From: an uncultured Bacteroidota bacterium
Lineage (GTDB): Bacteria; Bacteroidota; Bacteroidia; Bacteroidales; F082
Reading direction: 5' to 3'
DNA: 64,000 nucleotides
NCBI GenBank assembly: GCA_913055825.1
Contig: CAJXKB010000002.1
Span: 1 to 64,000 of the forward strand
The translations under genes were made by a program, and so were the position numbers. Below the pieces are notes generated by a model, which was not told the origin of the DNA, did not search any database, and was given only the letters and a program-made list of their open reading frames with translations. Below are positions 55,575 to 55,857 of the stretch, in pieces. How positions within the stretch are numbered: the first letter of the stretch is position 1; each line of letters begins with the position of its first letter.

Positions 55575-55652
55575 GGAATGTGGTGTTAGTTAATTGACTT
55601 CAAATGTACATTAATTTTTTTGCGATTACACACAAAATAGTTCATATTAATT
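55575..55652. other. AT-rich spacer upstream of the serine hydrolase gene
   Basis: About 80 AT-rich bases between the hydrolase start and the GC-rich element. No clear TAnnTTTG box was found for the hydrolase gene. Confidence 0.3.
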
Positions 55653-55800
55653 TGGGCGCCCGGGCGTGCCTTCCGTTGTAGATGGTTTAGCGCTGCTAAC
55701 CTGCTGTAGGCCGTGCGTGGGCTTCCGATGTCAGCCTCCGCCGGCCAACAGCCGCTAAGCAGCGCTTTCACCATGCTGCCACTCCAGCCACTGGCGCAGG
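55653..55800. other. GC-rich structured non-coding element
   Basis: By hand count about 97 of these 148 bases are G or C (66%), against a surrounding value of roughly 42%. Nested inverted repeats run through it: ATGGT (55682-55686) with ACCAT (55770-55774), AGCGCTGCT (55689-55697) with AGCAGCGCT (55758-55766), and GCTG-GGCC (55702-55711) with GGCC-CAGC (55743-55752). A GGGCGCCC palindrome opens it and a GCCA/TGGC hairpin closes it. The boundaries to AT-rich DNA are sharp. It fits a folded RNA or a small mobile element better than a protein gene. Confidence 0.7.
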
Positions 55801-55857
55801 AAACAAAATATTAACTTAATTCTTTTTAGTCATTTAACTTTAAACGGCTTCTTTATA

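Follow-up and report, generated by a model that had tools for sequence, protein, structure and literature searches.

The question raised by this locus is what a GC-rich, self-complementary block is doing in the AT-rich gap that separates a serine-hydrolase-like gene on the minus strand from a nadB-like gene on the plus strand (names taken from reading the translations). In the window, by which we mean the whole 64,000-nucleotide stretch of DNA that was analysed, positions 55658-55797 are the most GC-rich 140-base stretch, at 65% compared with a mean of 41% and 57.9% for the runner-up; a slightly wider interval, 55650-55799, has 64% GC between flanks of about 27%. An earlier note on this DNA had described a 148-base GC-rich patch with sharp borders that stands out from the rest of the window, encodes no credible protein, and carries at least three nested inverted repeats. 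This description was borne out on every point: comparison with relatives confirmed and refined the borders, no open reading frame of at least 80 amino acids overlaps the patch, and all three repeats were found, together with an outer stem that the note had missed. The whole forms a single long imperfect hairpin with nested 25-nt arms that are 84% complementary, and its fold is better than that of dinucleotide shuffles on both strands (z of -3.1 on plus and -4.1 on minus). Its parts are collected in Table 1.

Table 1. Features of the hairpin element, in window positions.
Feature	Position	Strand or placement	Sequence and basis
Whole hairpin element	about 55654-55797	+ (orientation of model R1; Flavo-1 on minus strand)	
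T/A-rich hexamer, left border	55648-55653	+	TAATTT here; TTTTTT in most copies
Left end module	55654-55680	+	consensus GGGCGGC..CGGGCTNTCCGYTNTAG; conserved in alignments A1 and A2
Outer stem	55656-55660 / 55793-55797	left arm inside left end module	GCGCC / GGCGC; comparison with relatives
Variable stem, left arm	55682-55697	+	ATGGT (55682-55686), AGCGCTGCT (55689-55697); covarying helices 3 and 4 of A2
Apical module	55703-55752	+	consensus GGCxGTGCGTGGGCTTCCTNCGTCAGCCTCCGCCxGCC; inner repeat GCTG-GGCC (55703-55712) / GGCC-CAGC (55743-55752); loop at about 55724-55732
Variable stem, right arm	55758-55774	+	AGCAGCGCT (55758-55766), ACCAT (55770-55774); covariation, complementarity
Right end module	55775-55798	+	consensus GCTRCCRCTNCNATCCCTGCCGC, then A; conserved in A1/A2

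The element is one of many. Although BLAST returned a single strong copy in its own genome, the reading of a single-copy feature was rejected when a covariance model made from its relatives, R1, which matches the window at 55648-55805 (146.8 bits, E 1e-35), gave at least 37 copies there and at least 45 in G143, a complete one-contig genome of the same genus; with 150 candidates scored per genome, these numbers are lower bounds. The genome-wide copy count proposed in the earlier note thus gave many further copies. Among the 173 genomes of the same family that were searched, matches were dispersed and had their centre in the apical block, the segment first found to be common to other genomes; 42 of the 173 held R1 copies, and all named records with the apical block belong to Bacteroidota. 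A 23-base pattern from the right end matched 23, 42, and 80 times in G143, G144, and G152, and its reversed control did not match at all. Each of the 30 right ends inspected belongs to a unit as long as the hairpin, the left end being degenerate in one unit and an internal stretch deleted in another; a gene enclosed by the two ends, as an autonomous copy would have, was found in none of the 30. Family borders are sharp, with a T-rich hexamer followed by GGGCGGC at one end and GCCGC followed usually by A at the other; T occupies positions -6 to -1 in 57-78% of copies and is back at background at -7. Copies cluster by genome (those of G144 are 87% identical to each other and 51% identical to others), and copy number per genome ranges from 0 to more than 100. 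A search for carriage on plasmids gave no match. In one genome, two family elements lie 75 bp apart in opposite orientation (L212:2027-2186 on plus and 2261-2419 on minus), the second of which has a sub-threshold match to the Rfam family Flavo-1 (RF01705).

The relation to Flavo-1 proved to be one of homology. Against RF01705, which has a gathering cut-off of 42 bits, the window element gave no match even at E values up to 10; the best RF01705 match in its own genome had an E of 0.47, and one same-genus copy reached a sub-threshold 31 bits. Of 395 genomes from all over the phylum, 32 gave R1 matches, mostly from one family, here called Flavobacteriaceae-type because most Flavo-1 occurs there. 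Many of these matches are shorter, at about 76-110 nt, and when 20 of the phylum-wide R1 loci were compared with RF01705, 16 passed its cut-off, at coinciding positions on the other strand. In the reverse direction, a model built from nine copies of the Flavobacteriaceae-type family only (R2) hit the window element at exactly the right coordinates (42.2 bits, E 7e-9), its best match to anything other than the element having an E of 0.94. These reciprocal model matches therefore identify the window element as a long homologue of Flavo-1 that falls beyond Rfam's own definition of the family. Flavo-1 itself reaches 110-131 copies in several genomes. It was proposed as an RNA on the basis of comparative analysis (Weinberg et al. 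2010, PMC2864571) and is ranked with the most abundant families of sRNA (PMC9029176), no function having been assigned to it since 2010. Apart from Flavo-1, we found no literature on the repeat in searches that included the main text of the 2010 paper.

The consensus hairpin derived from an alignment of 23 copies (A2) has 34 pairs, and in 27 of them both sides have changed at least once, so that the paired mutations that the earlier note had named as support for a structured element are present; the covariation score was 0.57, compared with 0.18 for shuffled alignments and at most 0.13 for slid controls. Isolated G-U pairs make up about 1% of stem pairs, as opposed to 9.9% in tRNAs of the same loci, although the pairing method scores G-U as a mismatch and hence undercounts it at stem ends; a count based on the alignment gave about 3% with one conserved T-G site and about 1% without it. 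That site excepted, G-U is no commoner than A-C mismatches. Isolated conserved mismatches on the plus strand are pyrimidine-pyrimidine in 169 cases and purine-purine in 15, leaving the minus strand with mostly purine-purine mismatches.

The 70 copies examined appear intergenic, and they show no preferred orientation with respect to neighbouring genes (23 divergent, 17 convergent, and 25 co-directional) or, in G143, to the replication fork (23 versus 22); the Flavo-1 copies listed in G515 were split 27 to 18 (p 0.23). A terminator or riboswitch was rejected given the lack of orientation preference and a T tract that lies 5' of the hairpin. Insertion of the IS200/IS605 type on the lagging strand (PMC6006769) is unsupported, as there is no orientation bias relative to the fork. 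Compared with shuffled flank pairs, no convincing target-site duplication was seen, the best z of 3.35 (expected maximum about 2.7) falling at a biologically odd offset. The flanks of the copies contain no conserved sequence where a minus-strand promoter should be. Behind a tRNA-Leu-like gene in each of two same-genus genomes (L037 and L047) stands a terminator-like hairpin, the T tract of which is immediately followed by an element.

Comparison of shared sites revealed both gain or loss and persistence. The gene junction that holds the element in the window is empty in G150 and G153, of the same genus, where it measures 137 and 140 bp rather than 307 bp, and a Flavo-1 copy at a convergent junction in G515 is absent from the close relatives G581, G574, and G572. 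In the best-sampled pair, G000 and G143, flank matches showed no more than about five occupied intergenic regions in common, two with the copies in opposite orientation. In another genus, the same site is filled across species (L321, L323, and L326) by stems that differ yet stay complementary, and a site upstream of an asnS-like gene is filled, again with compensated stems, in at least five Flavobacterium-type species; at these cross-species sites, the copy is missing from one species, through loss or because it was never there, and survives as a remnant in another. No exact insertion junction was obtained at the nadB or Flavobacterium-type sites because the flanks there are too diverged, and no transposition event was observed. 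Next to the Flavo-1 copy upstream of the asnS-like gene in one Flavobacterium-type genome lies another high-copy palindrome (TGTCATTTCGACGAAGGAGAAATCAC..., L347:8703-8833). Elsewhere, in two genomes that are about 94% identical, different DNA starts exactly at the right end of a common element (L007, reverse strand, and L005:1593-1812), about 1.3 kb with an open reading frame in one case and about 0.2 kb in the other, as though the element had served as a target for insertion.

The earlier note had left the choice between a structured RNA, a small non-autonomous mobile element, and a recombination site. No function of the last kind was seen, the RNA fits worse, and the mobile element fits best because of the dispersed copies, the bursts in particular lineages, and the orthologous junctions that lack the element. 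A functional structured RNA, transcribed from the minus strand as an sRNA or within untranslated regions and with a multiplied gene, would account for the strong covariation, and RF01705, which Rfam types as an sRNA, has a model that matches the minus strand of the relatives. The purine-purine mismatches conserved on that strand would suit an RNA too, which to that extent counts against the mobile-DNA reading. However, orientation with respect to neighbouring genes is random, no conserved flank lies on the expected promoter side, and G-U pairs are nearly absent; in the transcriptome of F. psychrophilum, moreover, transcription was not consistent, Flavo-1 matches falling without distinction on either strand of transcribed regions and often beyond such regions (PMC9723704). 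An RNA gene is thus disfavoured by its random orientation, its near lack of G-U, and the published transcript data, and we regard it as rather unlikely.

Alternatively, the copies could be chromosomal protein-binding sites, of the nucleoid or gyrase type suggested for BIMEs, which selection maintains where they are and which multiply through conversion or an occasional duplication instead of transposition. Intergenic placement, indifference to orientation, and compensated stems at the same sites in different species (L321/L323/L326 and the asnS-like site, at least five species) would all be expected of such sites. Conversely, the few regions that G000 and G143 have in common, two of them with reversed copies, the lineage bursts, and a copy number that varies between genomes from none to over a hundred are unsuited to a fixed essential site, and we find this explanation unlikely. 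Less probable still is a giant REP/REPIN-type element moved by RAYT (Y1_Tnp) transposases. Y1_Tnp genes were present in all 12 genomes searched, and high-copy intergenic palindromes without target duplication are what such enzymes would leave; no element was found beside a RAYT-like gene, however, a single nearby copy lying more than 1 kb from an IS200-type gene, and RAYT-like genes are flanked by short palindromes of their own. Nor is there a GTAG (or CGTC) tag at the borders, which read TTTTTT-GGGCGGC and GCCGC-A, or any replication-strand bias, and the length is 150 rather than 20-40 bp. The palindromes flanking RAYT-like genes (L068, L075, L082, L084, L077, and L085) differ from gene to gene, for example, GGTCCAAGCGGACGCTTGAACCA and GTCCTCGTTTGTAACGAGGAC, and form a tandem-like array at L084.

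We therefore return to the mobile hairpin. The window element is probably one member of a dispersed family of mobile, non-autonomous DNA repeats in Bacteroidota, belonging to a long sister clade of Flavo-1. The repeat is an imperfect palindrome of about 150 bp in which the ends and an apical module, the latter with columns invariant in A1/A2, are conserved and the stems vary freely yet remain complementary. Its many intergenic copies are randomly oriented, amplified by lineage, present at some orthologous sites and absent from others, and evolve by compensated changes nearly without G-U. Because pairing is of the Watson-Crick kind, orientation is random, and copies are gained and lost, the hairpin appears to matter as DNA, and we infer that the element acts at that level. 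A putative enzyme supplied in trans would recognise the element as folded DNA, either as a cruciform or as a single strand such as the purine-rich minus strand, and would insert it next to a T-rich hexamer, with no duplication of the target; inserted copies would then persist and turn over slowly. Against mobility count the lack of an autonomous copy among the units inspected, of an exact insertion junction, and of an observed transposition event. Compensated stems at fixed sites also count against it, in that a dead copy would need conversion, repair, or selection to keep them; old copies may have evolved in this manner through selection for binding, conversion by other copies, or repair templated by the opposite arm. 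More tentatively, and with some doubt, Flavo-1 and its long relatives could constitute one phylum-wide class of mobile DNA, a folded hairpin spread by an enzyme, the arms of which are kept complementary by arm-templated repair or conversion. If this were true, one of the commoner "sRNA" families of Rfam would not be an RNA, with a bearing on sRNA annotation throughout Bacteroidota. Once Flavo-1 is linked to a long clade that shows end conservation, bursts, and empty junctions, the question becomes what moves the DNA rather than what the RNA does.

Several known systems share features with this repeat. Like MITEs such as ERIC and NEMIS (listed in PMC3733652), it is small, non-autonomous, devoid of coding capacity, and able to fold as a hairpin, but it shows no target duplication, its arms vary freely among copies, and no parental transposon was found. 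Non-autonomous elements derived from IS200/IS605 (PMC6006769) also have hairpin ends, no target duplication, and a T-rich flank on one side; unlike them, the repeat has no fork orientation bias, and no tnpA-bearing copy was found. With REPINs and BIMEs accompanied by RAYT (PMC3116915, PMC2817692) it has in common non-autonomous intergenic palindromes in which the ends are conserved and the middle varies, a high copy number, and the absence of target duplication, whereas there are no GTAG-tagged REP ends, no association with RAYT was found, the unit is 3-5 times longer, and the whole stem covaries. The closest system is Flavo-1, to which the element is linked by its end modules (on the minus strand, AGGGATNGNAGYGG ... 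TAGCGGANAGCCCG), its hairpin architecture, and its many intergenic copies in Bacteroidota hosts. In contrast to the 76 positions of the Rfam model, the window type extends to about 150 nt and has a long stem rich in GC as well as a conserved apical module, and it is interpreted here as mobile DNA instead of RNA. What emerges is a long clade of the known Flavo-1 motif, together with a testable case for the motif as a mobile DNA repeat.
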